Source of the DNA: a virus
Length of the DNA: 25,814 nucleotides
IMG/VR virus record: IMGVR_UViG_3300021389_000139
Coordinates: 1 to 25,814 of that record
Strand: one strand, 5' to 3'
Shown: positions 572 through 24,745 of the stretch, in pieces
Layout: each line of letters starts with the position of its first letter
Numbering within the stretch: the first letter of the stretch is position 1
Position numbers and translations under genes: made by a program
Notes under the pieces: generated by a model
Databases searched by the model: none
The model's input: the letters and a program-made list of their open reading frames with translations, nothing else
Told to the model about the DNA's origin: nothing

Positions 572-957
572 TGGGCAAAGGCGATCCAGAAGGCGGTCGG
601 CCTCGCGTCGAGATCGACATTGACCAGTTGCGAAACATGGTCCGCATTCAATGCACGGCAGAGGAATGCGCGGGGGTGTTTGAGTGCTCAGTTGATACGC
701 TGGACCGCAGGCTGAAGGAGGAAGGCTATGGCGGTTTTGCGGACTTCTATAAAAAGCACAGCGACGAAGGCAAGGCATCGTTGCGCCGTGCTCAGTGGAA
801 GGCCGCGCAGGATGGCAACCCGACAATGCTTGTTTGGCTTGGCAAACAGATGCTTGGGCAGCGGGATAAGCACGACCTTGACCACACATCCAGCGACGGC
901 AGCATGACGCCCCACGTCGTTGAGCGGATCATCGTGAAGCCTGATGGCAATCAATAA
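571..957 (+). CDS. Terminase small subunit
   Basis: Probable small terminase subunit of 128 residues, which recognises the packaging site on concatemeric phage DNA and hands it to the large subunit. Residues 18-50 read as a helix-turn-helix (QCTAEECAGVFECSVDTLDR with the following helix), and the later stretch ASLRRAQWKAAQDGNPTMLVWLGKQMLGQRDK (shown only as a landmark: residues about 70-100) is the region seen in many small terminases and HTH phage proteins of this type. It starts at an ATG sharing one base with the methyltransferase stop, and its 3' end overlaps the large terminase by 14 bases. That neighbour is the strongest functional evidence. Confidence 0.85.
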   Translation: MGKGDPEGGRPRVEIDIDQLRNMVRIQCTAEECAGVFECSVDTLDRRLKEEGYGGFADFYKKHSDEGKASLRRAQWKAAQDGNPTMLVWLGKQMLGQRDKHDLDHTSSDGSMTPHVVERIIVKPDGNQ

Positions 958-2260: not shown

Positions 2261-2282
2261 CCACCGCTTTCCGTGCTATATT
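2253..2282 (+). promoter_or_regulatory. Possible sigma70-type promoter after terminase
   Basis: The 45-base gap after the large terminase contains TATATT at 2277-2282 (five of six matches to TATAAT). TTGTTT at 2253-2258 sits 18 bases upstream; the better-looking TTGACC at 2257-2262 is only 14 bases away. It would drive the genes from 2306 onward. The match is weak and unsupported by other evidence. Confidence 0.25.
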
Positions 2283-2305
2283 GCGCCTGAATATGTGAGG
2301 GCGTT

Positions 2306-2755
2306 ATGGACGGACAAAGATATACCGGGCTGCTGGACATGATCAACGGTGGCGGCGCTGGCCGCGCTGGGCAGCAATTCGAGGGCGGCGGGCTTCTCTC
2401 TGACATCGCCAACGCTCTGGCTCGACCCTACGGCTACATGGACCGCATGGCCGCTGTGAGGCCGCAGGCACGCCCGATGCAGGCAGGACTGCCCGACATG
2501 CCGATGATCCAGACGCCCCCTCCCCAGCAGTCACCGCTGGAGATGTTCGGCGGGCAGGTTCCCAATTCGTCACCAATTCCGGTGCAGCAGTCGCCTCTTG
2601 AAATGTTCGGTGGTCAACCGCCTGCACCTTACACGCCGCCCCTGCAATACGGCGGACGCGGCACGGCAGGGATGCCCTATCCCCAGTTTGCAATGACGCC
2701 AGAGCAGCGGGCCACCTTGGATTATCTCCGCAGCATCGGATATGTGAATTACTGA
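2306..2755 (+). CDS. Pro/Gln/Gly-rich hypothetical protein with a repeated motif
   Basis: Unrecognised 149-residue protein, rich in proline, glutamine, glycine and methionine and probably largely disordered in the middle. The segment QQSPLEMFGGQ occurs twice (about residues 74-84 and 94-104), encoded by clearly different codons. The C-terminus (MTPEQRATLDYLRSIGYVNY) could be a short helix. A GAGG ribosome-binding site lies 5 bases before the ATG. The stop overlaps the next start (TGATG), so it is probably translated together with the ART-domain protein and may be a virion or assembly partner of it. The function is unknown. Confidence 0.75.
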   Translation: MDGQRYTGLLDMINGGGAGRAGQQFEGGGLLSDIANALARPYGYMDRMAAVRPQARPMQAGLPDMPMIQTPPPQQSPLEMFGGQVPNSSPIPVQQSPLEMFGGQPPAPYTPPLQYGGRGTAGMPYPQFAMTPEQRATLDYLRSIGYVNY

Positions 2756-4224
2756 TGGTCGAAACGCTCTGGGATAAAATCACGCAGTTCGTTTCGCCAG
2801 AAGCGGGGCAAGCCCGTAGCCGTGCGCTGAACGAGGCTATCGGCTATTACATCCCACCGGAGATGCGTGGGCTTCTCGGCCTCGTGGCAGATGCTACACC
2901 TTCGGCGTCATACGGTCGGGCAGCACAGGCCAGTCAGGAAATGGTCGCTCCGGGACGCACCCCAATGCAGCGGATCGGCAGCGCAGGTGAGATGCTGTCC
3001 TCAACGGCTGAAATAGCCGCCCCTATGGCCGTTGCTGGTCGTGCGGGTATGCCAGTGGCCCAAGCCGTGCAGGAGGGCTTGCTGGGCTTCTCTGCGGGCG
3101 CTGACGACGTGGGGCGCAGGTTCGTTGAGCGCATGAACCAGCCGGGGCCAGTCCCGACGATGTATAGCAATCCCCTGCGAGTTTTTCACGGCGGGAAGGA
3201 CTTGATTACAAGTCCGCGAGCGACAGTTGACCCGGAAGGATTGTTGCCCGGATTTAGCGTAACACCTGACGAAAGAGTTGCTGGTATGTATGCAGGGATG
3301 CGTGGCGGTGATGCTGTGTCATCCTTTGACATAGACAAGAGCAAACTAAGTTCTATTGGCGAAATGGAGTTATATGATCTTCAAGACTTTCTTGAAGTAT
3401 CAAGGGGCCTTGATGAAGGAGATTTGCCGCAGGCTGAATTGCTCAAAGAGTTGCAAGATCGTGGCATCAATGCAATCAAATACGCTGACCCAGAGTTTGG
3501 AATGCGGATATTGGACCCGTCCATCTTGAGGTCCGTGCGTGTGGCTGATGAACTCCCCGCCCCCCGCAACGAGGCCGAGGCTATGGCCCGTCAGGTCTTG
3601 GAGCTGCGCGCCGCTGGCCGTGCGGGCGACGTAACAGAGGAAATGCGCGCCGCTGCTGACCCGCAGTATATGTTCGCCAACACCCCTCTCCCGATGGACG
3701 AGGTAAGCAGAATGGCGCGGGCGCGAGAGATGGGCAGAGTTGACCCGCAGTATCATGCAACCCTTGCAGACTTTCCGGCGTTTATGCCGAGCGAGACTGG
3801 CTTGGTCGGTCGGGGCGTTTATACGGGCGACTTCCCCACGGATATTGAGGACTACGCGCGGAAGCAGGGAACGTCAGAGGGGCTGAACATCATCCCGCTT
3901 CTGGTCCCCTCAGAACAAACATATGCGCGTCGGATTGATTGGCAAAACCTTGTCGATGCGGATGAGGCTTTCCCGTGGAATGCAACTGTGGATGAAACGG
4001 TGCAGGGGTTCAAGCGGGCGGCTGACACTATGTCCGCGCAAGGTTATCCGGGCGTCAACAGCCAGCCCGGTGAGCGGGTCACGTTTGACCCGGCCAATAT
4101 CCGTTCCCGCTTCGCCTTGTTTGACCCAGAGTTTGCCCATCTCCGCAACCTAAGCGCAGGCGTCGGTGGCCTCGGCCTTCTCGGCCTTGGTGCATATGAC
4201 GCCCAGCAGGGGGAGCAATACTGA
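2755..4224 (+). CDS. Virion-region protein with two ADP-ribosyltransferase-like domains
   Basis: 489 residues. ART-like domain 1 covers about 142-263: VFHGG (H145), [15 protein letters not shown] (166-180) and [19 protein letters not shown] (E247). Domain 2 covers about 331-462: [12 protein letters not shown] (H334), [15 protein letters not shown] (354-368) and [19 protein letters not shown] (E440). This H..., G-x-x-T-x-x-x-x-x-A-x-x-Y-A..., E-x-x-x-F-D-P-x-x-I-R-S layout resembles ART-like domains in large phage and MuF-type polyvalent proteins, which can modify host proteins with ADP-ribose from NAD. Whether either domain is catalytic cannot be told by eye. A linker at about 280-330 ([31 protein letters not shown]) separates them, and a Gly/Leu-rich stretch ([16 protein letters not shown]) ends the protein. 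Domain 1 lies in an AT-richer block. It overlaps both neighbours by one base. Confidence 0.7.
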
Positions 4225-4875: not shown

Positions 4876-5490
4876 ATGGCAATCACAACCTACGCAGAAT
4901 TGCAGACAGCGGTATCGAACTGGCTCAACCGGGACGACCTGAACGCCGTTGTGCCTACCTTCATCGCACTGGCCGAGGCCCAGATCGCCCGTGATGTGCG
5001 TCACTGGCGCATGATTGAACAGACCACCCTGACGGTTGACGGCCAGTATGAGGCCATCCCGGCAGACTGGGTGGAGACGATCCGCATGGTTCTCAGCACC
5101 AGCGACAGGCGCAGGCTTGAGACTGGCAGCCTGAACGAACTGATGGACCGCAGGCACACAGACGACAGCGTGGGAGCGCCGATGCTCTATGCCCACGTCG
5201 GGGACCAGTTTGAGTTCTACCCGACGCCTGATGGCAGCTACAGCGTTGAACTGACCTATTACAAGACAATCCCAAAGTTGTCTGACAGCAACACGAGCAA
5301 CTGGCTCTTGGCGCAGGCACCTGACGTGTATCTCTACGGCTCATTGATTCAGTCCGCGCCCTACCTGAGCGACGATCAACGTGCTACTATCTGGGCAGGC
5401 TTCTACGCTGCGTCCGTTTCCCAACTCAACGCAGCCAGCGATGCAGCCCGCACGAGCGGCAGCTTGCGGCTTAGAACGAGGAACCAGTGA
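4876..5490 (+). CDS. Head-tail adaptor protein (SU10-like)
   Basis: A 204-residue protein of the phage adaptor type that forms a ring under the portal and connects head to short tail. The opening MAITTYAELQTAVSNWLNR and the following helix (VPTFIALAEAQIARDVR) are the family hallmarks, followed by a beta-rich middle with the phrase FEFYPTPDGSYSVELTYYKT (about residues 114-133) and a C-terminal helical region. The length matches the family. The start is one base after the previous stop, and its stop overlaps the tailspike ATG (TGATG). Confidence 0.8.
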   Translation: MAITTYAELQTAVSNWLNRDDLNAVVPTFIALAEAQIARDVRHWRMIEQTTLTVDGQYEAIPADWVETIRMVLSTSDRRRLETGSLNELMDRRHTDDSVGAPMLYAHVGDQFEFYPTPDGSYSVELTYYKTIPKLSDSNTSNWLLAQAPDVYLYGSLIQSAPYLSDDQRATIWAGFYAASVSQLNAASDAARTSGSLRLRTRNQ

Positions 5491-7310
5491 TGGCGACGAC
5501 CACGACATACGGATTGAACAAGCCCACCGTCGGCGGTGACGAGAACACATGGGGCGGCAGTCTGAACGACAACGCCGACAAGATCGATGATCTGCTTGAC
5601 GGCACGACGGCGGTCAAGCCAAACCTTGATCTAGGCTTGTGGAAGGTCGGCGGCACGGCGGTCACTGCCTCGGCGGAAGATTTAAGCGCTAGGGCTTTCA
5701 GCGCGGTGGCACTGCTGCTTGGAGACACGGACCTGACCTACACTGCTGAGCAGATCGGCACAGTGTCGTCTGGCCAGTATATCCGCACCCGCAGCGAGGG
5801 CTTTGCCTATCAAGTAGCAGCATCCGGCGCATCTGACCACCACGTCACCACGGCGGGCGGGGTCAAGCTGTATGTGCTTCCGGGCAATGCGGGCTACAAC
5901 GTCAAGGCCTTCGGCGCGCTCGGGGATAACTCGGCAGACGATACGTCTGGAGTGCAAAAGATGCTGGATGTTCTGAAGGCAAACGGCGGCATCGGCATCA
6001 TCCCGAAAGGCAACTATCGCATTACGTCTTCGCTCACCCTTAACACAGCATCCACAAACTGGGCGCTTGTCGGTGAGGACGGGGCAAAGTTAATTCGCGC
6101 CGCAGACTTTGGATCTGTCGTGTCCATCCACACCGCCGATGATTGGCGCATTGAAAACATTGAAATCGATGCCGGTTTCTCGTCGTTTGCGACCAACGCC
6201 AATCACGGGGTTGTTTGGTATAACTGCTCAAACGTGTTGGTTCGCCGCTGCCGCGTGACAAATTACAAGAATACCGCCATCATTGGCTACACATCCCCGG
6301 CATCGCTGACCTACACAAACAACGTCGTTGAGGATTGCGTCACAGATGGGCTTGATGCGGCGAACAACGGCATTCTTTTGGCCGACCTGTTCCGCTCTGG
6401 CTTGCGCAATTGCCAAGTGCTGAACGTCGGCAAGTCTGGCTCGCCGTGCTACGCGCTGCAGTTAAAGAACAGCTGCCAAGAAGGGTTTATTGAGGGTGGC
6501 AGAGCAACTGGCGCTACATTTGGCATTGCGATGGGGAATTACGACACAAGCGGCACGCATTGCCGCAATCGCGTGTCTGGTGTTCACGTATTCGACTGCG
6601 ACGTTGGGATTGCTTTTGGGAACGCGAAGGGCAACCTGTTCAGTGATCTGGTGATCGACATGGACAACGCGGGCCTGAGTGCGGTGGACTTCAACCTTAA
6701 CAGCGTCGGCTGCGCGGGTCGCAACATCGCAGTCCACAACTTGGCCGCAGGCAAGAGCGCTGTGCGTTGCAGATCCGGCGATACAGATAACGTCGTGCAT
6801 GTTTCAACCATTGAAAACGACAGCGGCTTGGTCCGCCCGTTTGCTGAGTTTGGTTCTGGCGCTGCACGCAACACAATCAACCTTGATCGCTACGTCAACC
6901 CGACAACTGTCACTAGCACGACAAGCGGACTTATTGCTGATACTTCCGGCGTCTCGACCAACCGCGCGAGCCTGCTGTCGTTTCCGCTGCGCTACAGTTA
7001 CACGATTGCCAGCGATGCCATCACGCTGAACGGCCCGCATGTGACTATTGTCCGCGTGGACACGGAAAGCAGCGCGTCAACGGATGATTTGCTAACGATC
7101 AACGGTGGCGTGGATGGGCAAACCATCACGATCAACACCACAACAAATGTGCGCGACGTCGTTGTTAAGCATTCGTCTTCGGGGTCAAACACGATCCGAC
7201 TGGTAGGGTCTGCTGACTTCACTTTGGATGGGATCGCAGATCGATTGTTGTTGCAATACGATGGTTTGCTTTCGCAATGGTGCGAAGTCGGACGCGGAAA
7301 CAATATCTAA
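5490..7310 (+). CDS. Tailspike with pectate-lyase-like beta-helix
   Basis: A 606-residue receptor-binding or depolymerase protein. The N-terminal region (1-130; YGLNKPTVGGDENTWGGSLN) is the usual attachment part of short-tail fibres. From about residue 137, VKAFGALGDNSADDTSGVQ with a later IIPKGNYRI is the signature start of a pectate-lyase-superfamily right-handed beta-helix, continuing as Asn/Val/Gly-rich coils to about 500. The C-terminal 100 residues (ITINTTTNVRDVVVKH, LLQYDGLLSQWCEV) look like a fibre tip or trimerisation domain. It would bind and perhaps cleave surface polysaccharide; no catalytic residues can be assigned by eye. I chose ATG 5490 over GTG 5487 because it restores the TGATG overlap and gives better spacing from GAGGAA. 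Confidence 0.85.
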   Translation: MATTTTYGLNKPTVGGDENTWGGSLNDNADKIDDLLDGTTAVKPNLDLGLWKVGGTAVTASAEDLSARAFSAVALLLGDTDLTYTAEQIGTVSSGQYIRTRSEGFAYQVAASGASDHHVTTAGGVKLYVLPGNAGYNVKAFGALGDNSADDTSGVQKMLDVLKANGGIGIIPKGNYRITSSLTLNTASTNWALVGEDGAKLIRAADFGSVVSIHTADDWRIENIEIDAGFSSFATNANHGVVWYNCSNVLVRRCRVTNYKNTAIIGYTSPASLTYTNNVVEDCVTDGLDAANNGILLADLFRSGLRNCQVLNVGKSGSPCYALQLKNSCQEGFIEGGRATGATFGIAMGNYDTSGTHCRNRVSGVHVFDCDVGIAFGNAKGNLFSDLVIDMDNAGLSAVDFNLNSVGCAGRNIAVHNLAAGKSAVRCRSGDTDNVVHVSTIENDSGLVRPFAEFGSGAARNTINLDRYVNPTTVTSTTSGLIADTSGVSTNRASLLSFPLRYSYTIASDAITLNGPHVTIVRVDTESSASTDDLLTINGGVDGQTITINTTTNVRDVVVKHSSSGSNTIRLVGSADFTLDGIADRLLLQYDGLLSQWCEVGRGNNI

Positions 7311-9898: not shown

Positions 9899-10375
9899 AT
9901 GTCTGGCGGCAAAGGCGGAAGTCAAACAACCTCGGTTGAAATCCCTGCGTGGCTTGAAGATGCTGCGAAGCGGAACATTGCCAAGGCTGAAGGCATTTCT
10001 CAGCTAGATTTCATTCCCTACATGGGGGCTGACGTGGCTGGGTTCTCTCCGATGCAGTTGGCAGCGATGCAGGGAACTGGATCGGCGGCGTCTGCCTTTG
10101 GACTTGGCGGTGGCGACCCACTGGCTGGAATACCTCAGCCGCAGCAGTTCGCAGGCGGCATTCAGGGCTATTCGTCGTATCCGCTGTATGAGCAGGCGTT
10201 GGCTAATCTACAGGCGGCGGCTCCCGGCCAGTATGCTGCGCGGCAGGCACCGTTTATCAACCAGCAGACAGGCGCGGCTCCGGGTGGTGTTTACATGAGC
10301 GGCGCGCAGCAGCCTGTTGCAGTGCCTGCACCTATTCAGCCTGTCCGTCCAGACATTGAAAACTACGGGCCGTAA
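9899..10375 (+). CDS. Virion-associated hypothetical protein (MSGGKGG family)
   Basis: A 158-residue protein with a strong ribosome-binding site (AAAGGAG at 9886-9892). The N-terminus, SVEIPAWLEDAAKRNIAKAE with a following YMGADVAGFSPMQ and AAMQGTGSAASAFG, resembles N-terminal parts of internal or structural podovirus proteins that I recall being paired with a Gln/Gly-rich partner. The C-terminal third is Pro/Gln-rich and probably disordered. Its partner follows after 10 bases. It may be part of the ejected core; the role is unproven. Confidence 0.7.
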   Translation: MSGGKGGSQTTSVEIPAWLEDAAKRNIAKAEGISQLDFIPYMGADVAGFSPMQLAAMQGTGSAASAFGLGGGDPLAGIPQPQQFAGGIQGYSSYPLYEQALANLQAAAPGQYAARQAPFINQQTGAAPGGVYMSGAQQPVAVPAPIQPVRPDIENYGP

Positions 10376-10385
10376 GGAGACACAC

Positions 10386-11303
10386 ATGGCAGGCGCATCA
10401 AATCCAGCGAACACGCAGCCCAATGTCTTCGGGCAGGCGGCACAAGGCTTGCAGATGGCAGGTCAAGGCACAATCGCTTCCGGCATGGGGCCAAACATCG
10501 GCCAGTTCCAGAACCCCTACACGCAGCAGGTCATCCAGCGCACAGAGCAGGACATTGCCCGTCAGCGTGAAATGGCGATGAACCAACTCGGCGCACAGGC
10601 TGGCGCGGCTGGGGCATTCGGCGGCTCACGTCACGGCGTGGCTGAAGGCGTCCTCGGCGGCGAATATGCCCGGATGGCTGGCGACATGGCGGCACAACAG
10701 CGTCAGACTGGTTTCAACACCGCGCTTCAGGCTGCACAGAACCAGCAGGGCATCGGCCTTCAGGCGGCGGGTCAGCTTGGCAACCTCGCCCAGACTGGCT
10801 TTGGCATGGGCATGGGCATCAACCAGCAGCAGATGCAGCAGGGGGCAATGCAGCAGGCTCTACAGCAGCAGATCATCGACGCGGCACGGGCGCAGTATGG
10901 CGGCTTCACTGGCGCTCCACAGGCGTCTCTGGGGCTTCCTATGGCGGCTCTGGGGGCTGCGAACATGGGGCAGCAGTCTTCAACCCAAACAAGACAGCCG
11001 GGTCTGTTTGACTTCCTCGGTCTTGGGGCAAGCACTCTTGGCGGGCTTGGAGAGATTGCAAAGGCTGGCGGGTTCGCCGCTCTATCAGACGCGCGTTTGA
11101 AAACCAACGTCCGCCCCATCGGTGAGCGCAACGGCATCAAGCTGTATTCTTGGGACTGGAACGAGGAGGGCAAGCGCATTGCCAGCCCTGACCAGCCTAC
11201 GGTCGGCGTCATGGCTGATGAACTGATGGAGACGCACCCGCACCTCGTCATGCGCGGCTCTGACGGCTACCTGCGGGTCAACTACGGCGGGCTGCAACTC
11301 TGA
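10386..11303 (+). CDS. Gln/Gly/Ala-rich virion protein with C-terminal S74 chaperone domain
   Basis: 305 residues. Residues 1-200 are rich in Gln, Gly, Ala and Met, with helical stretches (QQVIQRTEQDIARQREMAMN; QQQMQQGAMQQALQQQIIDA), suggesting an assembling or ejected virion protein. Residues 233-303 match the peptidase S74 intramolecular chaperone: LSDARLKTNV (S234, K239, the usual five-residue Ser-Lys spacing), LYSWDWNEEG, VGVMADELMETHP and YLRVNYGGL. S74 domains fold trimeric spikes and then cut themselves off before the conserved serine. The ATG at 10386 is preferred to an in-frame start at 10317 because AAGGAGA (10374-10380) lies just upstream. The stop overlaps the next ATG (TGATG). 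Confidence 0.8.
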   Translation: MAGASNPANTQPNVFGQAAQGLQMAGQGTIASGMGPNIGQFQNPYTQQVIQRTEQDIARQREMAMNQLGAQAGAAGAFGGSRHGVAEGVLGGEYARMAGDMAAQQRQTGFNTALQAAQNQQGIGLQAAGQLGNLAQTGFGMGMGINQQQMQQGAMQQALQQQIIDAARAQYGGFTGAPQASLGLPMAALGAANMGQQSSTQTRQPGLFDFLGLGASTLGGLGEIAKAGGFAALSDARLKTNVRPIGERNGIKLYSWDWNEEGKRIASPDQPTVGVMADELMETHPHLVMRGSDGYLRVNYGGLQL

Positions 11304-14973: not shown

Positions 14974-17067
14974 ATGAAACCGAAACGCCTAACGGACACG
15001 GAAATCCAGAGCACTGTCACCAGCGCAGTGCGCGAGGCTGTTGATTTCGTCGAAAGCGAAGTCGCCCCGGATCGGATCGAGTCGCAGAAATACTTTGACG
15101 GCGGCACCAAGGTTGAACACGAGGAAGGCCGTTCCAAGGTTGTGGCAACCAAGGTGCGTGACACCATCCGGGCCATCAAGCCTGCCCTGATGCGGGTGTT
15201 CCTGCAATCCGACAAGCCTGTTGAGTTCATCCCGACGACACCACAGGCTGTGCAGGGTGCCGATCAGGCCACCAAATATGCCAAGTATGTCTTTGAGCGG
15301 AACAACGGCTTCCGGGTGCTGCACAGCGCCATTCACGACGCACTGATCAAAAAGACTGGCATCGTCAAAGTCTACTACGACGAAGTGCCGGATCTGGAGA
15401 TTGATGAATACAGCGACCTGACGCCAGAGCAGTTGCAGCTTGTCGAAGCCGATCCAGAGGTTGAAATCATCGACCGTGAGGAAACGATCATTGCCGAGGC
15501 AGTGGTTGACCCGATGGGCATGGTCATTCAGCCGCAGATGGCGACCTACAAGGTGCGCGTGGCCCGTGAGAGCCTGAAGGGCCAGATCAAGATCGAAGCC
15601 GTGGCCCCGGAGGACTTCTTCGTTGACCGCATGGCCGTCAGCATTGAGGACTGCTACGTCTGCGGCCACACGTCAGAGGCCCGCGTCGGTGATCTGGTTG
15701 CTATGGGCTACGACTTTGAGACGGTCTACGAACTGTCTGGGGCTGCCGATGGCACCGTTGACGACGAGGAAGAACTGGCCCGCCGTGGCTGGGATGACAC
15801 GTCAGAGGACGAACACCCCAACGACCCGTCAATGCGGAAAGTGCAGTTCACCGAAGCCTACATGAAGATGGACATTGAGGGGCTGGGCGTTCCCAAGCTG
15901 TATAAGTTCATTTGCGCGGGCAACGACTACGAGGTTCTGGAATACGAACTGTGCGACTATGTGCCGTTTGCAGTATTTGAGGTGGACCCAGAGCCGCACA
16001 CATTCTTTGGTCGTTCACTGGCAGAGATTGTGCAGGACGATCAGGACGCCGCTACATCTATGCTGCGTGGCCTGCTCGACAACATCGCAATGATGAACAA
16101 CCCGCGCCTCGGTGTCTTGGAGGGTCGTGCAAATCTTGACGACCTGCTGAACAACGAAATCGGCGGCATCGTGCGGATGAAGGACATCAACGCCGTCCGT
16201 GAGTTTCAGATCGGCAACGCGGCTGTCTCGGCGCTTCCGGCGATGCAATACTACGACGAGGCCATCAGGGCCAAGACAGGCGTCTCTGGGGCCGCTATGG
16301 GGCTTGATGCTGATGCCTTGCAGTCCCAGACAGCCGCAGGCGTCAATGCCGCTGTGCAGGCCGCTACGGCAGTCTCTGAACTGATCGCCCGCAACCTTGC
16401 TGAAGGCGGGATGAAGCAGATGTTCCGCCTCATTGCGCAAATCGCACGGGCAAACCCGAACCCCGGCGAGATGATGCGTCTGGACGGGCAGTTTGTCCCG
16501 GTTGATCCGCGTAGCTGGACGAATGATCTGGATCTGGTCACGAATGTCGGTCTGGGCAACAACGCCCGCGAAGAGCGTATGATGATGCTGCAAACCACCT
16601 TGCAGACGCAGATGCAGATTTGGCAGACATATGGCCCGACGAATGGTCTGGTCAGCATGACGCAGATGCGCAACACGCTCGCTGATCTTCTCGGCATGTC
16701 CGGCATTCACAATGCGGATCGGTATTACAACCCGATGAACCCGCAGATGGAGCAGCAGTTGCTTATGCAGGCGCAGCAGGCAGCACAGGGCCAGCAACAG
16801 CCGCAGTCTGACCCGAACATGGCATTCATGCAGGCGGAGCAGATGAAGGCCCAGACCCGTGCGCAGGTTGACATGCAGAAGGCCGCTATGGAGCATCAGC
16901 GCAAATTGATGGAGATGGCAGCAAGCGATGACCTGAAGCGGGACGAAATGGCACAGAACTTGCTAGTCGATGCGGCCAAGATTCTCGGTCAATATGGCAC
17001 AAGCGTTGATGTTGCCCGCGTCCGTCAGGAACAAGCAATGCCGCGTCAATTCGGGGAAATGTTTTGA
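14974..17067 (+). CDS. Portal protein
   Basis: A 697-residue protein forming the dodecameric DNA gate of the capsid vertex. Family features seen: AVDFVESEVAPDRIESQKYF near the N-terminus, KVRDTIRAIKPALMRVFLQS (about 59-78), HSAIHDALIKKTGIVKVYYD, VAPEDFFVDRMA (wing), TFFGRSLAEIVQDDQDAATS with LRGLLDNIAMMNNPR (stem region) and a Gln/Met-rich C-terminal barrel-like tail (QQLLMQAQQAAQGQQQPQSD). The length fits large podovirus portals of the P22/SU10 kind. AAGGAG at 14963-14968 overlaps the previous stop and precedes the ATG. Confidence 0.9.
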   Translation: MKPKRLTDTEIQSTVTSAVREAVDFVESEVAPDRIESQKYFDGGTKVEHEEGRSKVVATKVRDTIRAIKPALMRVFLQSDKPVEFIPTTPQAVQGADQATKYAKYVFERNNGFRVLHSAIHDALIKKTGIVKVYYDEVPDLEIDEYSDLTPEQLQLVEADPEVEIIDREETIIAEAVVDPMGMVIQPQMATYKVRVARESLKGQIKIEAVAPEDFFVDRMAVSIEDCYVCGHTSEARVGDLVAMGYDFETVYELSGAADGTVDDEEELARRGWDDTSEDEHPNDPSMRKVQFTEAYMKMDIEGLGVPKLYKFICAGNDYEVLEYELCDYVPFAVFEVDPEPHTFFGRSLAEIVQDDQDAATSMLRGLLDNIAMMNNPRLGVLEGRANLDDLLNNEIGGIVRMKDINAVREFQIGNAAVSALPAMQYYDEAIRAKTGVSGAAMGLDADALQSQTAAGVNAAVQAATAVSELIARNLAEGGMKQMFRLIAQIARANPNPGEMMRLDGQFVPVDPRSWTNDLDLVTNVGLGNNAREERMMMLQTTLQTQMQIWQTYGPTNGLVSMTQMRNTLADLLGMSGIHNADRYYNPMNPQMEQQLLMQAQQAAQGQQQPQSDPNMAFMQAEQMKAQTRAQVDMQKAAMEHQRKLMEMAASDDLKRDEMAQNLLVDAAKILGQYGTSVDVARVRQEQAMPRQFGEMF

Positions 17068-17312
17068 GCCTCGTAAAGCAGCGCGCAGGGGAAGCACGTC
17101 GGCTATTGTCTGACGAGGTGTTCCAATCCGTAATTCAAGAAATCAGGGAAGATGCGACAGCCTTTTTCCTGAATTCGAATTGTGGTATTGATGAACTTGC
17201 AGACGCTCATATGAGGGTCCGCGCAACGCAGATTATCCTAGACGCCCTCCAAGCGAGATTAGACGCCGAGGCCGTTCAGGACAAAAAGGATCAGCACCGT
17301 GGAAGCGACTGA
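17064..17312 (+). CDS. Small portal-scaffold junction protein
   Basis: An 82-residue helical protein (VKQRAGEARRLLSDEVFQSV; FLNSNCGIDELADAHMRVRA) beginning at TTG, which overlaps the portal stop (TTGA) and follows GGGGA. Short helical proteins in this slot, starting MSL-KQR and ending in a DAL-ARLDAE-type helix, recur between portal and scaffold genes. Function unknown; a role in procapsid assembly is plausible from position. The 3' end overlaps the scaffold start by 14 bases. Confidence 0.8.
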   Translation: MSLVKQRAGEARRLLSDEVFQSVIQEIREDATAFFLNSNCGIDELADAHMRVRATQIILDALQARLDAEAVQDKKDQHRGSD

Positions 17313-18252
17313 TACGATGGAACAGGCCGTCAATAGCCTTTTGGATATTGAGCCTGAACAAACCGAAGAAATCGAAACCGATGAGGTGGAGACGGATGAG
17401 GTTGAAACCGACGAGGTAGAGGTTGAAGAAATCGATACCGACGAGGACGAGGATGAAGGCGAAGAGCCGGATTCTGACGAGGACGATGAGGACGAAGACA
17501 CCGACGCCGACGAGAAACCCAAACTCCACAAAGTCAAAGTTGACGGTGAGGAGCGCGAGGTCACCCTTGACGAGCTAAAGCGGGGCTATTCGGGCCAACA
17601 AAAAGTCCAGAAGGGAATGCAGCAGGCCGCAGAGGTGCGGAAACAAGCCGAAGGCCTGTATCAGACCCTTCAATCTGAACGACAGCAATTCCTTGCGACG
17701 GTGCAGCAAATGCAGCAGCAAGGTATCGTGACGCCCCCCAAGGCTCCTGACATGTCTATGATGGAAAATGATCCAATCGGCTACATGCAGGAGAAAGCAG
17801 CTTACGACGTTAAGATGCAGGAGTTCCAAGGCCAGCAGCGCCAGATCCAGATGGAGCAAGCGCGCGCCCAGCAACTGCAAGAGAGCGCCAGACAGGTGCA
17901 ATTGCAGGAGCAAGTCAAGGCGCTGGTCCAACGCATTCCTGAGTTTGCCAACCCGGAAAAGGCGGCAAATCTCAAGAAGGAACTGCTGGATTACGGCATG
18001 AGCAAAGGGCTGTCCGCTGAAGAACTGCAAGCCACGACCAACGCAGCATATGTGGACATCCTCTATGATGCGTATCGGTTCCGTCAGCTTCAGAGCGGCA
18101 CGGCAAAGGCTAAGAAGAAGCCAGAGTCCCCGCGTAATGTGAAGCCGAAACCGCGTCGTTCTGAGCCGCAGAAGATCGTTCAGCAACGGAAAATGCAAGC
18201 CGCAAAGAAATCGGGAAAGCCTGAGTCTTTCATTGATTTCTTGCTCGAATAG
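17299..18252 (+). CDS. Capsid scaffolding protein
   Basis: A 317-residue protein that would fill the procapsid and guide coat assembly. Residues about 15-72 are extremely acidic, including three ETDEV units in a row and long Asp/Glu runs. A short beta unit (LHKVKVDGEEREVTLDELKR) follows, then a long Gln-rich coiled-coil (about 100-225), and a basic C-terminus (AKKKPESPRNVKPKPRRSEP) expected to bind the coat protein. This acid-coil-base order directly before the major capsid gene is typical. I prefer the GTG start at 17299, which has AAAAGGA nine bases upstream; ATG 17317 is the alternative. Confidence 0.85.
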   Translation: MEATDTMEQAVNSLLDIEPEQTEEIETDEVETDEVETDEVEVEEIDTDEDEDEGEEPDSDEDDEDEDTDADEKPKLHKVKVDGEEREVTLDELKRGYSGQQKVQKGMQQAAEVRKQAEGLYQTLQSERQQFLATVQQMQQQGIVTPPKAPDMSMMENDPIGYMQEKAAYDVKMQEFQGQQRQIQMEQARAQQLQESARQVQLQEQVKALVQRIPEFANPEKAANLKKELLDYGMSKGLSAEELQATTNAAYVDILYDAYRFRQLQSGTAKAKKKPESPRNVKPKPRRSEPQKIVQQRKMQAAKKSGKPESFIDFLLE

Positions 18253-18273
18253 CAAACCGCATGAGGTGAACAC

Positions 18274-19230
18274 ATGGCACAGCCAACCAATACCCTTGAC
18301 TCCTACGACGTAAAAGGCATCCGCGAGGATCTTTCGGATGTAATCTACAATATCTCCCCCGAAGAAACGCCGTTCTACACTGCGTGCGCCAAGGGCAAGG
18401 CGACCAACACTTTCCACGAATGGCAGACCGACTCGCTGCGTGCATCGGCTGACAACGCACACATTGAAGGCGATGACACCATTGCTGAAGCCCGTGCCGT
18501 CACCAGCCGCTTGGGCTCGTATACGCAAATCTTCAAGAACGCGGTTGTCATTCCCGGCACCGATCAGGGTCTGAACAAAGCAGGCCGCGCCCGTGAGATG
18601 GCCTATCAGGTTCTGAAGATCGCCAAAGAGCAGAAGCTGGACATCGAAAAGGCACTGTTCGCCAATCAGGCTCGCGCTGCTGGCTCGTCCAGTGCTGCAC
18701 GCCGTCTGGCAGGCGCACCCGCATGGCTGTTCACGAACACCGTGTTTGGTGCAAACGAAGGTGCAGATCCGACTGGTGACGGCACCGACGCACGCACGGA
18801 CGAAACCACTGCGCTGACCGCGTTCTCGCAGCCCAAGTTCGACGGCGTGATGCAGTCGATCTGGACTGCTGGCGGCAAGCCGGATTCGGTTTACCTGTCG
18901 GCCTACCAGATGAACATCGCGCTTTCGTTCACCGGCAACAATAATCAGCGCTCCAACATCACTGCGGAAGCAGAGAAGGTCATCAAGCACATGGCCGTCT
19001 ATGTAACCCCGTGGGGAACCGTTGAGTTCAAGCCGACCCGCGAAAACCGTGGCCGTGACGTGTTCATCATGCAGGATGACATGTGGGGCGTTGGTGTTCT
19101 GCGCGCGACGAAGAACGAAGAACTTGCCAAGACGGGCGACAACGAGAAGCGTCAGGTTCTGACCGAACTGACCCTGATCTGCCGCAACGAAGCGTCTTCC
19201 GGCGGCATCTTCGACAACAGCACGTCGTAA
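18274..19230 (+). CDS. Major capsid protein (SU10/DUF5309-like)
   Basis: A 318-residue HK97-fold coat protein. The N-terminus, VKGIREDLSDVIYNISPEET PFYT, and the following WQTDSLRAS are hallmarks of the DUF5309/SU10-like coat family. A central segment (REMAYQVLKIAKEQKLDIEK) corresponds to the spine helix, and GGKPDSVYLSAYQMNIALSF with VYVTPWGTVEFKPTR to the P and A domains. GAGGTG at 18264-18269 is a good ribosome-binding site. There is no separate maturation protease gene in the neighbourhood. It is followed by a strong hairpin. Confidence 0.92.
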   Translation: MAQPTNTLDSYDVKGIREDLSDVIYNISPEETPFYTACAKGKATNTFHEWQTDSLRASADNAHIEGDDTIAEARAVTSRLGSYTQIFKNAVVIPGTDQGLNKAGRAREMAYQVLKIAKEQKLDIEKALFANQARAAGSSSAARRLAGAPAWLFTNTVFGANEGADPTGDGTDARTDETTALTAFSQPKFDGVMQSIWTAGGKPDSVYLSAYQMNIALSFTGNNNQRSNITAEAEKVIKHMAVYVTPWGTVEFKPTRENRGRDVFIMQDDMWGVGVLRATKNEELAKTGDNEKRQVLTELTLICRNEASSGGIFDNSTS

Positions 19231-19237
19231 GAAACAA

Positions 19238-19263
19238 GGGGGAGGGCTTCACGGTCCTCCCCT
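19238..19263 (+). terminator. Hairpin after the capsid gene, possible terminator
   Basis: Eight bases after the capsid stop, GGGGAGGGC (19239-19247) pairs with GTCCTCCCC (19254-19262) around a TTCACG loop. One G-T wobble lies inside the stem and one more possible pair (G38/T63) outside it. Only a short TATTT follows, so termination may be partial, leaving some read-through into the small genes downstream; it could also stabilise the capsid mRNA. Confidence 0.6.
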
Positions 19264-19271
19264 ATTTCGCA

Positions 19272-19580
19272 ATGGCTGAATATCGTGTAACATGTGACGG
19301 AATATTCCGGGGCGGTGTCGTTTATCGTCGCGGGACAATATTGCGAATGCCCCCTGAAGCGGCAGAGGTTATGAGAATGGCCTATCCGCACCTGACCTTT
19401 GAGGCTGTAGATGACGAAAATCGCGGAACGAGTATTCGAGGACGAGGGGAAGCTGATCGTGCAGGAGACGCACGACTTCAACCCAGTTCTGGAGCGGGCC
19501 AAGTCACTCAAAAGCGCGGGCGTGGACGGCCTAGGGGAGTCAAAACTCGTCGGGCTGGTTCCGATGAAACTCTGGGCTGA
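19272..19580 (+). CDS. Small hypothetical protein overlapping the next gene
   Basis: An open frame of 102 residues. The first 48 or so (MAEYRVTCDGIFRGGVVYRR through LTFEAVDDEN) read like a normal small beta-rich protein. From about 19411 the same DNA is used in another frame by a more convincing gene, and residues beyond 48 here are Arg/Gly/Ser-rich. No good ribosome-binding site precedes the ATG at 19272; the GGGGGAGG upstream is tied up in the hairpin. It may be a real gene with a long overlap or a gene whose tail is unconstrained. Confidence 0.5.
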   Translation: MAEYRVTCDGIFRGGVVYRRGTILRMPPEAAEVMRMAYPHLTFEAVDDENRGTSIRGRGEADRAGDARLQPSSGAGQVTQKRGRGRPRGVKTRRAGSDETLG

Positions 19581-19698
19581 GTGGGCCAAGAAGTGGGGTG
19601 TGAACCCGAATGACAGTCATGCGATGCGGGAAGTCGTGGCGCGTGAACTGAACGACAGCAACAATTCACATCTGCGGGTGTGGGAAGGGCGATATTGA
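19411..19698 (+). CDS. Conserved small head-region phage protein
   Basis: 95 residues, mostly helical: a start of MTKIAERVFEDEGKLIVQET followed by DFNPVLERAKSLKSAGVDG, then LVGLVPMKLWAEWAKKWGVN, and a C-terminus ending in LRVWEGRY. This layout recurs in small uncharacterised proteins next to capsid genes of podoviruses. GAGG at 19401-19404 is well spaced before the ATG. It overlaps the preceding frame by 170 bases. Head completion is a guess from position only. Confidence 0.8.
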   Translation: MTKIAERVFEDEGKLIVQETHDFNPVLERAKSLKSAGVDGLGESKLVGLVPMKLWAEWAKKWGVNPNDSHAMREVVARELNDSNNSHLRVWEGRY

Positions 19699-19700
19699 GA

Positions 19701-19943
19701 ATGGCGAACATCTTGGCTGGAGATCCCGGATACGACGCAACGGCAGTAACACCGTCTGACACTGGACACATAGGGAATGACCGTGCGCTCTATGTGGGCG
19801 GCGCAGGCAACGTAAAGGTTGTCACGGCTGCTGGCTCCACTGTGACGTTTACAGGCGTTCAGGCGGGCAGCGTGCTTCCTGTGCGGGCAACGCGGGTCTT
19901 TTTGACCGACACGACGGCGACGGCTATCGTTGCAATCTACTAA
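19701..19943 (+). CDS. Spike-base protein (RcGTA rcc01079/GhsA-like)
   Basis: An 80-residue protein with DRALYVGGAGNVKVVTAAGS, TVTFTGVQAGSVLPVRATRV and a final TTATAIVAIY. This is the pattern of the small spike-base family named after the Rhodobacter capsulatus gene transfer agent protein rcc01079, a capsid head-spike component. Here it follows the capsid genes and precedes a large fibre, the same base-then-fibre order as in the RcGTA head-spike pair. The ATG at 19701 follows GGAAGGG; an in-frame start at 19680 would lie inside the previous gene. Confidence 0.75.
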   Translation: MANILAGDPGYDATAVTPSDTGHIGNDRALYVGGAGNVKVVTAAGSTVTFTGVQAGSVLPVRATRVFLTDTTATAIVAIY

Positions 19944-19955
19944 AGGGATCTGCAC

Positions 19956-21872
19956 ATGATCAGCCTAGGGCTTAACCTGTGGTCCACGACTATTTTGGCT
20001 CGTGGTGGTGGTGGAGAAGCCCCCTTCTCCCCCGCGTCTCTCTTTGCTTCTGGCGAGGAGGGTGCATGGTATGAGCCTTCGACTACTACAACGTTCACTG
20101 ACCTTGAGGGTTACACCTTCGCCACCTACGGCCAGCCTGTTGCTCACCTGATTGATAAGTCCCAAGGGGCTACGATTGAGGCGAGAAGGAACCTGTTTAC
20201 CGACACAGAAGAGTTGGCTGAGTTTTCAAGCGTCCAAAACGGGGCTGTAGTCAGGGCTGATGGCTGGGCAGAATTTACGGAGAACACTAGCGCCAGTTCC
20301 TTTCATAGATTGTTTGATGCTGGGTTTAGCCTTTCAGCGGTTACATACGAACTTTCCCTTGATTTTGAATATGTAGACTGTCAATTCATACACTTGGTCG
20401 CCTATATAAGCACAAACAATGAGTGGGCATCTATCAGAATCGATTTAATCAATAAAGAAGTTGTAGCTACAGATGTCGGTGGTAGCACTTCTATTGTGTC
20501 TAGTGGCGTTGAACCCCTTGATGGAAACATTTGCCGTGCGAACATGGTGTTTGACGCTGGGGCTTCTGGAACATGGCTTTTTAATGTGTTTACCGCCTCC
20601 TCTACATCGGGATTTTCGACGGTTGGGTCACCCGTATCATTCACGGGAACATCCCGTAAAGTAAAATGCAGGAAATCACAAATTGCAGTAGGCTCCACAG
20701 CCACAGCCTACCAGAAGATCACCACAGGCCAGACAGTCTCTTGGCTCCCCGGCAACCACGCCACCCAGACCACCCTCGCCTCTCGTCCTATCCTTGCGCG
20801 TGTGCCTGAGACTGGGCGTAGGAACCAGCTGGAGAGGACTGAGGAGTTTGATGATGCGGTTTGGATTCTGGATAACAGTGGGGCGACAAACCCTGTTGTA
20901 ACGGCTGATCAAGGTCTTGATCCTAATGGCGATCTTACTGCTGACCGTATCCAATTGAACAAAACGGGCGGGACATTTTCAAGAATTCGTCAAGATTTCA
21001 CCGCCACACCATTACCAAATGCAATCTATACATTCTCAGCTTGGATGAAAACTTACAGCGGGTCTGGCACACAGAATGTTGGTTTGCGGATTTTTTCCAC
21101 GGACTCAAATCATGTCGTCACTGGAGAGTGGCAGAGGTTTTCCGTTACGGTATCCGCAGCAACAACAACACCCAATTCTAGTGTTCTTCTGATTGATGGT
21201 GCTGGCAATGACGAAACTGCTGACATTCTTGTCTGGGGCGCTCAGTTAGATGCTGGCTCCACCGCCACCGACTATCAGAAGGTAGTAACCTCCTACGACA
21301 TCACAGAGGCGGGCGTTACCTCGCTGGAGTATCTGTCGTTTGATGGGGCGAATGACGGTATGGTGACTGCCCCCATCGAAGCTGGGACGGATAAGGCTCA
21401 AGTACTTGCTGGCATTGCCCGCATAGGAACTGTCCAGTACCCAATAGTTATGGAGTTTGGTGGCTCTGCTAACGGCTATGCGGGCAGCTTTAGTTGGACA
21501 CAAAACACAAACGTATCGAACCGCATGTTTGTTTCGACGTATGATTCTCCGAGCGTTGCGACTACAGCTACGATCTCAACAGATTATCCACCAAACACCG
21601 TTGTTATGGTGGCCGAAATAGATAGGGCCGCATCGACTGAGATTTCAGCGAGAATAAACGGCAGCGAAGCTGGAATTTCTCTGTCTGGCTCAGGTAGTTC
21701 TGGCAATTTTGGAACCTTACCAATGTACATAGGCAGTCGTGGGCTGACGGGGTCTTTCTTTAATGGCGAGATGTATGCCCTTGTTTTCCGCTTCGGTCCC
21801 ATCCTCACCACAGGCGAAATCACCAACACCGAAGCCTACCTAGCCACACGCAGCGGGGTGACACTGCCATGA
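19956..21872 (+). CDS. Modular fibre with two carbohydrate-binding-like modules and a LamG-like tip
   Basis: A 638-residue adhesin. The N-terminal part (1-75; PASLFASGEEGAWYEPSTTT, VAHLIDKSQGA) is probably the attachment region. Two related beta-sandwich modules follow: about 77-255 (RRNLFTDTEEL to GSTATAYQKI) and about 288-443 (RRNQLERTEEF, IYTFSAWMKTYSGSG, GEWQRFSVTVS to GSTATDYQKV), like CBM_4_9-type sugar-binding units. The last 180 residues resemble a concanavalin/LamG fold (LSFDGANDGMVTAP, MYIGSRGLTGSFFNGEMYAL). Module cores are markedly AT-richer than their edges. AGGGATC precedes the ATG, and the stop overlaps the next gene (ATGA). It could be a head or tail spike. Confidence 0.7.
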   Translation: MISLGLNLWSTTILARGGGGEAPFSPASLFASGEEGAWYEPSTTTTFTDLEGYTFATYGQPVAHLIDKSQGATIEARRNLFTDTEELAEFSSVQNGAVVRADGWAEFTENTSASSFHRLFDAGFSLSAVTYELSLDFEYVDCQFIHLVAYISTNNEWASIRIDLINKEVVATDVGGSTSIVSSGVEPLDGNICRANMVFDAGASGTWLFNVFTASSTSGFSTVGSPVSFTGTSRKVKCRKSQIAVGSTATAYQKITTGQTVSWLPGNHATQTTLASRPILARVPETGRRNQLERTEEFDDAVWILDNSGATNPVVTADQGLDPNGDLTADRIQLNKTGGTFSRIRQDFTATPLPNAIYTFSAWMKTYSGSGTQNVGLRIFSTDSNHVVTGEWQRFSVTVSAATTTPNSSVLLIDGAGNDETADILVWGAQLDAGSTATDYQKVVTSYDITEAGVTSLEYLSFDGANDGMVTAPIEAGTDKAQVLAGIARIGTVQYPIVMEFGGSANGYAGSFSWTQNTNVSNRMFVSTYDSPSVATTATISTDYPPNTVVMVAEIDRAASTEISARINGSEAGISLSGSGSSGNFGTLPMYIGSRGLTGSFFNGEMYALVFRFGPILTTGEITNTEAYLATRSGVTLP

Positions 21873-22342
21873 GACTGACCATCGCAACCCCCGCAGAGGA
21901 ACTGGACGACACCCGTGACCTTGCAGTGGCTCTTGGCTGGATCAACGGCTACACCCCTGCCGAATGGGAAAACTCCTTCTCGGCCCAATACCAAGACGCT
22001 GCTGGTAACATCTACCACATCAGTAGCTTCGAGGCTTCTACAGGCTGGATCGCCACGGTTACTACGATGGGTCCGGTGGAACGTCCTGCCGCTGACGTAG
22101 GCACCTTGGACGAGGAGACTGGCGAATATGGGGCACCCTACGTCGTGAACCTCGCTGGTGCTCGTCGTGCGCAGGATCGTCTGGTCATCTGGCAACCTGC
22201 ACAACCTGACTTTGAGACTGGTGAAGTCCCAAGCAACCCTGTCCCCAAAGTCGGTGCAGATAAGCTGGTGGCAGTCATCGGCATGAAGGGTCCAGAGGCT
22301 CTCGCAGCTATGGGTCTGCAAAGCATTCCAATGGAACTGTAG
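21869..22342 (+). CDS. Hypothetical protein downstream of the fibre
   Basis: A 157-residue soluble protein, unrecognised. The N-terminal half has LTIATPAEELDDTRDLAVAL and HISSFEASTGWIATVTTM; the C-terminal half has VVNLAGARRAQDRLVIWQPA and KVGADKLVAVIGMKGPEALA. It is coupled to the fibre by an ATGA overlap. Genes in this slot often encode fibre-assembly chaperones or a fibre partner, but nothing in the sequence proves this. Codon use returns to the GC-rich style of the rest of the window. Confidence 0.65.
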   Translation: MRLTIATPAEELDDTRDLAVALGWINGYTPAEWENSFSAQYQDAAGNIYHISSFEASTGWIATVTTMGPVERPAADVGTLDEETGEYGAPYVVNLAGARRAQDRLVIWQPAQPDFETGEVPSNPVPKVGADKLVAVIGMKGPEALAAMGLQSIPMEL

Positions 22343-22390
22343 GTTGTGTAGAATGAAATCGCTGCTCAATCTTTCGCTATGAGGCCCGCT

Positions 22391-22615
22391 ATGGAAACAC
22401 TTGATCTCTTGATGCAATGGGTGGTGGCACCCGTCGCTGCCTTTGTGTGGGTTCTGCACAATCGTGTAAACAAGCAAAGCACGGACATTGAGGTGATCAA
22501 GGCCACGACATCGGCAAACAAAGAGGCCCACGACCGGGAGTTCAAAGAGATGCGCGACAACTTCAAGCGCGTCTTTGAGAAGTTGGACACGATTGAGTCT
22601 GCACTGAGGAAGTGA
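22391..22615 (+). CDS. Holin-like small membrane protein with coiled coil
   Basis: 74 residues. METLDLLMQWVVAPVAAFVW gives one N-terminal membrane segment (about 7-23); the rest is a charged helix with heptad character (EAHDREFKEMRDNFKRVFEK LDTIESAL). Its place directly before the endolysin suggests a holin or other lysis membrane protein. I chose ATG 22391, which has GAGG 6 bases upstream, over ATG 22379. Single-membrane-segment plus coiled-coil proteins of other functions (DUF2730-like) look similar. The 48-base gap before it shows only a weak TAGAAT at 22349. Confidence 0.6.
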   Translation: METLDLLMQWVVAPVAAFVWVLHNRVNKQSTDIEVIKATTSANKEAHDREFKEMRDNFKRVFEKLDTIESALRK

Positions 22616-22616
22616 C

Positions 22617-23246
22617 ATGAAAAAGCGCTACGCCCATTTCCGCGACTTACCTGCGCATGAGTGGCGCTGGCCATCGTTCTCGCCGCGTGAGATCGCCTGC
22701 AAGGGCACGGGTGAGTTGCTTGTGGACGATCACGCGCTGGACAAGCTACAGGCGCTCAGGAGCGCTCTGGGCAAGCCTCTGATCCTCACATCGGCCTACC
22801 GATCCCGGTCGCACAATACCCGCGTCGGTGGGGCCAAGAACAGTCGCCACATGCAGGGCGACGCTTTCGATGTTCGGATGGACAATCACGATCCGCATGA
22901 GTTCGAGGCAGCGGCCCGAAAGATCGGATTCACCGGGTTTGGGTATTACCCCAAGAGCGGGTTCATGCACATCGACACTGGCGCTGCGCGTAGCTGGGGA
23001 ACGCCTTGGCCCAAGACGGCAACCGACTGGCCCATTGAGCCGCCCCGTCAGCCTGAGAAGCTGTCCGAGGACAAGCAGGCGCAGGCTGTGGCAGGTGCAG
23101 GCGTTGCAGGGGCCGTGGCAGCCGCTGTGGAGCACGCCCCGCTGGCGGGTTCGCTTCTGGGCAACCTTGCACCCACTGCGCAGCTTGTGGCTGTCTGCGT
23201 GGCCGCTGCGTTGATCTGCTACGTCCTGTGGAAGCGTTCCCGGTGA
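22617..23246 (+). CDS. Endolysin, M15 peptidase with C-terminal membrane anchor
   Basis: A 209-residue zinc-dependent peptidoglycan peptidase. SAYRSRSHNTRVGGAKNSRH MQGDAFDV gives H78-x6-D85, and GFMHIDTG gives H118, the metal ligands of Peptidase_M15-type endolysins that cut the stem peptide. After the catalytic domain (to about 135) a Pro-rich linker leads to a Gly/Ala-rich segment (AVAGAGVAGAVAAAV, about 157-171) and a clear membrane helix (LVAVCVAAALICYVLW, about 190-205) followed by KRSR. No N-terminal signal is seen. The GAGGAAG ribosome-binding site is good. It starts one base after the holin-like gene. Confidence 0.85.
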   Translation: MKKRYAHFRDLPAHEWRWPSFSPREIACKGTGELLVDDHALDKLQALRSALGKPLILTSAYRSRSHNTRVGGAKNSRHMQGDAFDVRMDNHDPHEFEAAARKIGFTGFGYYPKSGFMHIDTGAARSWGTPWPKTATDWPIEPPRQPEKLSEDKQAQAVAGAGVAGAVAAAVEHAPLAGSLLGNLAPTAQLVAVCVAAALICYVLWKRSR

Positions 23247-23467: not shown

Positions 23468-23603
23468 AGGCGACTTCTGCGACATTGCCCGCCCGAAATA
23501 TTTTACCTCTGCCGAGACGATCAACTGGCTGGCCGACAACGACAGACGGCTTCTGGCGCAGATCGTGGCAGAGAATGAGATATATCGGGAGTTTTGTTCG
23601 TAA
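23406..23603 (+). CDS. Rz1-like outer-membrane lipoprotein (o-spanin)
   Basis: 65 residues with a lipoprotein signal: WKLIPILLIVPLSGC, hydrophobic core plus lipobox LSGC with the lipidated cysteine at 16. The mature part (CVKATEGDFCDIARPKYFTS, then WLADNDRRLLAQIVAENEIY REFC) has cysteines at its beginning and end like other CD-x-x-x-P-type Rz1-like phage proteins. It starts inside the Rz-like gene in another frame (62-base overlap), and GGAAGGA precedes the ATG. Together they form a two-component spanin. Confidence 0.75.
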   Translation: MWKLIPILLIVPLSGCVKATEGDFCDIARPKYFTSAETINWLADNDRRLLAQIVAENEIYREFCS

Positions 23604-24745
23604 TGCCTACGCCTAAGCTGACCGAAGAGAAAATGCGCGAGGCTTGGGATGCATATGTCCAAGCCGATTATTCGATGAAAGGCGCATATGAACTTCTCGG
23701 CATATCTCGCAGCACATTTGACCATCGTCTTCGCGCTGCCAAGCTGCACGGGTTCCATCTTTCAGAGGGTGCGCGGAATGTCGTTGACAGGGCCAAGCTG
23801 AAGCCCAGTGAGGCGCGTGGCGGCTGGATACACGACTACGATGCCGACGGTAAAAAGGTCGGGACAACTCGCTGGTCTGTTGACGAAACGGAACTGCGGG
23901 ATGACATGCTGGAGCGGATCAGGGACGCTTTTACTGACATTCCCCCCGCGCCTGAAGTTGCCGCCCCCCAGCACGCCTTAGAAGATCTGATGACGATATA
24001 TCCGCTGGCTGACGTGCACATCGGGATGATGGCATGGGGCGAGGAAACTGGCGAGGATTACAATACCAAGACAGCCGTTGACCGCGTGACATCGTGGGTG
24101 GGTCGGGCTGTTGCATCATCCCCGGACAGCGAAACTGCAATCATCTTGGATGTTGGCGACTTGATGCACGCCGATGACCAGACCAATATGACACCCCGGT
24201 CAAAGCATGTCCTTGATGTCGATACGCGGCACTTCAAGACGCTGGATCTGACCATCTACGCCGTTGCAACGTCGATTGATTTGGCGCGTGCAAAGCACAA
24301 TCGGGTCATTGTCCGCATTCTGCCCGGAAACCATAACCTGACAAGCTATATGGCCGTCATGTTCGCGCTGGCAGAGCGGTATAGGGATGATCCGCGCGTT
24401 GATGTGCAGAAGGTTCCGGGTGAGTTTTTCACGCATGAATTTGGCAAGTGCTTGATTGCAGCGCATCACGGCGACAAGAGCAAGGCCGAGCGAATGGTCA
24501 TGTTTCTGGCCGACGAATATTCAGAGGCTTGGGGCAGGACGCGTCACCGCTATTTGTGGACGGGCCATCTGCATCACCACAAAAGCGCAGACATAGGCGG
24601 CGTCACATGGGAGCAATTGCGCGCCGTCACGGCCCGTGATTCATACGCCGTCAGCCACGCATATACAGCCCGGTCACAGCTACAGGCTATCACCTACCAT
24701 CGAGACTTCGGGGAGGTTCAGCGGGTCAAGATTTCTGGGCCGTGA
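23603..24745 (+). CDS. HTH-metallophosphoesterase fusion
   Basis: 380 residues. The N-terminal part (8-48) is a helix-turn-helix (AYVQADYSMKGAYELLGISR followed by STFDHRLRAA). Residues about 128-380 are a calcineurin-like metallophosphoesterase with all motifs: ADVHIG (D137, H139), DVGDLMHADD (D186), PGNHN (N243, H244), AAHHGDK (H288, H289) and TGHLHHH (H322, H324). Substrates could be nucleotides, DNA ends or cyclic nucleotides; the HTH suggests a DNA- or RNA-linked role. It is the last plus-strand gene, started by TAATG overlap with the lipoprotein, so lies outside the usual lysis set although co-transcribed. Confidence 0.85.
   Translation: MPTPKLTEEKMREAWDAYVQADYSMKGAYELLGISRSTFDHRLRAAKLHGFHLSEGARNVVDRAKLKPSEARGGWIHDYDADGKKVGTTRWSVDETELRDDMLERIRDAFTDIPPAPEVAAPQHALEDLMTIYPLADVHIGMMAWGEETGEDYNTKTAVDRVTSWVGRAVASSPDSETAIILDVGDLMHADDQTNMTPRSKHVLDVDTRHFKTLDLTIYAVATSIDLARAKHNRVIVRILPGNHNLTSYMAVMFALAERYRDDPRVDVQKVPGEFFTHEFGKCLIAAHHGDKSKAERMVMFLADEYSEAWGRTRHRYLWTGHLHHHKSADIGGVTWEQLRAVTARDSYAVSHAYTARSQLQAITYHRDFGEVQRVKISGP

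Follow-up and report, generated by a model that had tools for sequence, protein, structure and literature searches.

The gene at positions 19,956–21,872 of the window (the whole 25,814-nucleotide stretch of viral DNA analysed here, IMG/VR record IMGVR_UViG_3300021389_000139) probably encodes a head-spike fibre in which a lectin scaffold carries sugar-binding modules nested in its loops, the modules being swapped between phages at joints of near-identical DNA. The gene lies on the plus strand, as do all the segments described below, and its 638-residue product matches the NCBIfam family NF048003 (GTA_spike_fiber) with 79 bits against a curated cut-off of 36. Compared with its homologues the gene is a mosaic with fixed borders, in which slots are empty in some phages and filled in others and related modules occupy different slots.

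The fibre gene follows a gene of the Rcc01079 spike base family (19,701–19,943; 80 residues), which matched NF048002 in a profile search (76.2 bits, cut-off 28, E=1.8e-21) and whose product is proposed to be the capsid-side socket of the fibre. The N-terminal peptide of the fibre, MISLGLNLW (19,956–19,982), may bind this spike base by analogy with the gene transfer agent of Rhodobacter capsulatus (RcGTA), since its first eight residues, MISLGLNL, resemble the RcGTA peptide IALGLGLGL. Peptide and base gene travel together: among the 55 homologues with an N-terminus, a spike_base-like gene adjoined upstream in every one of the 24 cases with an anchor-type peptide (two classes were counted as such), but in none of the 31 with other N-termini. 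Thirty-one of the 55 relatives therefore have no recognisable spike_base directly upstream, and a head-spike role is not needed for all of them. The fibres of four relatives with other N-termini (MGFNLPVLNRLRR, NMPLALLNRRRR; L055, L081, L085 and L049) are preceded by small genes of 114–118 residues; these gave no spike_base match and may encode other, undescribed base proteins.

The phage has SU10-type portal and major capsid genes, and the fibre gene lies near the latter. We infer from this setting that the protein is located on the head, and a head-spike fibre is the most likely reading of the gene. It might instead be a tail fibre, which would leave module exchange unchanged; PHROGs labels some similar proteins as tail proteins, and many relatives are without a spike_base gene upstream. 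We regard a tail location as unlikely, since the window gene stands directly after spike_base and close to the major capsid gene, and since the phage has a separate tail-spike-like beta-helix gene (5,487–7,310) as well as a separate fibre gene ending in an S74 chaperone (10,317–11,303). Elsewhere in the window, the product of positions 23,594–24,745 falls in a family of DNA repair exonucleases (phrog_704, E=3.5e-94), which possibly bears on recombination, and 2,755–4,224 gives a weak, sub-cut-off match to the ADP-ribosyltransferase of polyvalent proteins. A non-exhaustive scan of the window ORFs for a reverse transcriptase, a sign of diversity-generating retroelements, found none. The fibre protein has no Pfam match above the cut-offs and a single, chance match in a PDB sequence search, and megablast of positions 14,974–23,000 against phage genomes returned no match.

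Predicted structures place the modules within a single lectin domain. For the window protein, AlphaFold gave a model with a mean pLDDT of 60.6; its module B and lectin part are usable, and module A is poorly modelled because relatives hold other modules at that place. Even so delimited, 165 residues of one lectin domain align across the range 29–638. The model of a relative whose slot 1 is empty (L045; pLDDT 81) is clearer: residues 28–440 of its 449 superpose on the stand-alone lectin domain 5hon over 193 of 206 residues (Z 17.3, r.m.s.d. 3.0), the N- and C-terminal parts jointly forming one jelly roll with module B between them. Insert-free proteins are known from isolated phages, both slots being empty in BroderSalsa and slot 2 in vB_PsaM_M1, and the 248-residue protein of Skulduggery matches the scaffold with a target TM-score of 0.84. 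Taken together, the L045 model and the insert-free proteins indicate that the scaffold is most likely a single ConA/LamG-like lectin domain whose loops hold the modules. Clostridial neurotoxins, too, have lectin-like domains that score well in the fold comparison, at 5–12% identity; this likeness is that of the shared jelly roll only, and there is no sign of toxicity.

On the DNA, the first part of the scaffold (PFSPASLFASGEEGAWYEPS...HLIDKS; 20,022–20,162), which in the L045 model is folded together with the C-terminal part, is followed by slot 1 (20,163–20,750). This holds module A, running from RRNLF at 20,184 to a linker that ends at 20,717. Joint M (GNHATQTTLASRPILARVPETGRRNQLERTEEFDD; 20,751–20,856) encodes a scaffold strand and the start of module B, the core of which fills slot 2 (20,857–21,248). 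Joint P (DAGSTATDYQKVVTSYDITEAGVTSLEYLSFDG; 21,249–21,347) leads into the variable face of the C-terminal, ConA/LamG-like lectin part (21,348–21,815), and the conserved end of the fibre continues into the next genes (21,816–22,619). Modules A and B are thus not equivalent neighbours, each being set in a loop of its own.

A preliminary description of this DNA had pictured two AT-rich, sugar-binding-like modules bounded by the same 27-base linker and exchanged as cassettes. Recounting bore out the primary observations. The two linkers (20,691–20,717, at the end of module A, and 21,255–21,281, within joint P) agree at 23 of 27 bases, whereas the top-scoring 27-mer pair reached 18–20 when the codons of the fibre gene were shuffled 60 times; AGGAAC occurs at the start of both modules and codes for RRN (RRNLF from 20,184 and RRNQL from 20,817); and the G/C counts of 41 of 120 bases at 20,341–20,460 and 76 of 120 at 20,701–20,820 are exact. 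Marked AT-richness is confined to the centre of module A (34% GC), module B being only mildly so (about 43–49% GC). The linkers share a reading frame, copy 1 encoding GSTATAYQK and copy 2 GSTATDYQK, and two independent codings of this peptide with the codon usage of the phage would share 19.4 bases on average, with P=0.04 for 23 or more. Because the peptide alone predicts most of the shared bases, the linker pair mainly reflects a common module-end peptide, GSTATxYQK, and the match at the DNA level goes only slightly past protein similarity. As module edges the linkers do recur, but conservation at the joints extends beyond 27 bases, to about 80–105 nt. The term binding module is backed by the GTA_spike_fiber family and by sugar-binding folds, more firmly for B, which alone scores 77.4 bits against NF048003, than for A, which covers the full profile but at 20.4 bits (E=5.8e-4) falls below the cut-off of 36. 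Family membership and fold resemblance together suggest that the modules bind sugars.

The common start motif, end peptide and family matches could also have arisen had modules A and B diverged after a tandem duplication within the gene, the linker being their conserved end and exchange between phages playing no part. We reject this origin as very improbable. Module B has no match to module A at E 1e-4, and in an all-against-all comparison of modules the nearest relative of A proved to lie in slot 2 of a different phage (L011; 33% identity, E=1e-14), a relationship that surfaced only there, module A alone as a query having found no relative among viral contigs. Furthermore, the closest relative of the window has B without A, and slot 1 of most relatives is filled by an unrelated type of module.

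That closest relative, the IMG/VR contig L002, displays the mosaic most directly. The two genes are 95% identical in DNA over 19,956–20,102. Module A is then missing from L002, which reads DLSGNGNHATQ where the window reads DKSQ...LPGNHATQ. Identity is above 90% in joint M (91%), about 65% in the core of module B, about 94% or more in joint P and about 36% in the variable lectin face, before returning to about 94% from 21,806 through the next genes (match 21,806–22,619). Third codon positions follow the same pattern, their identity being 93–95% in joint M and in joint P after the linker but falling to 45% across module B and to 23% across the lectin core. Near-identical joints thus surround cores that are diverged, unrelated or absent. 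Had the cores been the same in homologous genes, with divergence uniform across linker and core, exchange would have been contradicted; for the L002 pair the opposite is seen and uniform divergence is excluded. The similarity of L002 (positions 1–4,000) to the window begins exactly at the fibre ATG, with none upstream, which marks a further mosaic border.

The same edges enclose unrelated cores in other phages also. A search with the 27-base linker pattern found 14 contig stretches, every one of them in homologous genes, and further searches brought the set to 62 distinct proteins that share these landmarks. In 58 of them slot 1 could be read: it is empty in 13, holds one type of module in 40 and something else in 2, and in the remaining 3, the window included, it holds a module of the slot-2 kind. 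Some homologues carry modules in a further slot close to the N-terminus as well, and related modules sit in different slots of different phages at 84%, 70% and 65% amino-acid identity. In Synechococcus phage Sc-Yong805-1 (L106, 1,396–3,129; WAK43761.1) the same edges enclose a module with a long repeat-like stretch, which by eye resembles a beta-propeller.

Shared flanks around unrelated or absent domains, the pattern by which domain shuffling is recognized, are found in three pairs, the window and L002, L055 and L081, and L049 and L062. Upstream, L055 and L081 are 91–98% identical across about 2.7 kb, and their joint M agrees at 98.8% over 80 nt, while slot 1 (40%) and slot 2 (20%) hold unrelated cores; identical or near-identical copies of the L055 contig occur in two further samples (L056 and L082). 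Conversely, L049 and L062 have a joint-core-joint cassette in common within different surroundings. The clearest single recombinant, L064, matches one of L055 and L081 on its left and the other on its right. Its altered section lies at the end of a lone contig, and a search for a second contig with this junction found none, so L064 may be an assembly chimera. Over 803 gene pairs, 51% of similarity ends lie within 30 nt of the five landmarks (the joints) against 16% expected; some of this clustering would arise in any gene in which conserved and variable segments alternate.

How the borders came to be fixed can be read in more than one way. Illegitimate breaks might have occurred anywhere, with survivors only at domain borders, the joints being kept for the fold and not for crossover. 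Scaffold strands and the module-end peptide are indeed encoded in the joints, and the linker match within the gene is nearly explained by that common peptide. Selection of this kind is a serious possibility, yet we judge it the less probable course: it does not readily account for joints that in L002 are near-identical at synonymous sites beside a module B that is not, or for a joint M so well preserved in L055 and L081 between cores that are unrelated on both sides. Crossover inside the joints is accordingly best described as likely from these alignments; of the cassette exchange first proposed, the mosaic and its fixed borders are seen, and crossing-over is read from where similarity ends.

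Base composition also distinguishes joints from cores. In 61 of the 62 homologous genes the slot-2 core is poorer in GC than the joints (in the window, 20,751–20,831 and 21,243–21,356), and with amino acids matched, GC at four-fold sites is highest in the scaffold (0.67), intermediate in the flanking genes (0.54) and lowest in the cores (0.48). The low GC of the cores is consistent with imported sequence, and the high GC of the joints could come from codon bias or from biased repair. A bolder proposal is that the joint DNA itself is a site of exchange, where crossing-over is frequent enough to keep it near-identical and GC-biased repair raises its GC above that of codons for the same amino acids elsewhere, phages with different capsid anchors thus drawing on a shared pool of spike modules. 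We offer this tentatively and consider it rather unlikely.

We favour crossing-over within a common scaffold, and picture the fibre as follows. The hydrophobic N-terminal peptide would anchor the fibre in a capsid-borne spike base, the product of the gene just upstream, and the ConA/LamG-like scaffold would hold CBM-like jelly-roll modules, A in slot 1 and B in slot 2. Modules, and the variable face of the scaffold, are gained, lost and replaced between phages at fixed borders where the joint DNA is near-identical, and homologous crossing-over inside the joints would effect the swap. At about 80–105 nt the joints are long enough for such crossing-over, so that one module could be replaced without breaking the fold. 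Each swap would change which surface polysaccharide the particle adheres to first, and by this route might alter host range or allow host switching.

Receptor modules of phages have mostly been discussed at the tail and at the C terminus of fibres. Here a probable capsid spike has several separately replaceable modules within one scaffold, and its empty, filled and swapped states are naturally on hand for comparison. With these states one can test how adhesion modules are exchanged without breakage of the protein, from the number of crossovers in known joints. A large set of uncultured phages is also connected in this way to the head spikes of a domesticated gene transfer agent. Our literature search found no papers on module exchange in such phage head-spike fibres, though such papers may exist.

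The nearest characterized counterpart is the head spike of RcGTA, composed of the base Rcc01079 (GhsA) and the fibre Rcc01080 (GhsB), which aids adhesion to the capsule; the fibre hangs on a base pentamer via residues 2–10, IALGLGLGL (PMC7296036, PMC10218006). Both systems have adjacent base and fibre genes and an N-terminal hydrophobic peptide of alternating type, and module B of the window belongs to the same NCBIfam domain family as the RcGTA fibre. They differ in size and setting: the RcGTA fibre has 325 residues, whereas that of the window has 638, with a lectin scaffold and two nested, putative sugar-binding modules, and lies in a lytic-type phage gene cluster. In predicted fold, the scaffold and module B are like ConA/LamG-like lectins and carbohydrate-binding modules (AbnA domain 4, CBM22, CBM40 and pentraxin), from which the window protein differs in its nested modules and in having no Pfam hit that passes the cut-offs. 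Smug et al. 2023 (PMC10684548) describe domain shuffling in phage receptor-binding proteins, for example the neck passage proteins of Lactococcus phages. As in the cases cited from that study, close relatives here join near-identical parts to unrelated domains; in those examples the N terminus is kept and the C-terminal domain replaced, whereas in the window fibre several internal slots are swapped independently within one scaffold. The fibre thus belongs with the known modular receptor-binding proteins of phages, as a variant on a probable head spike.
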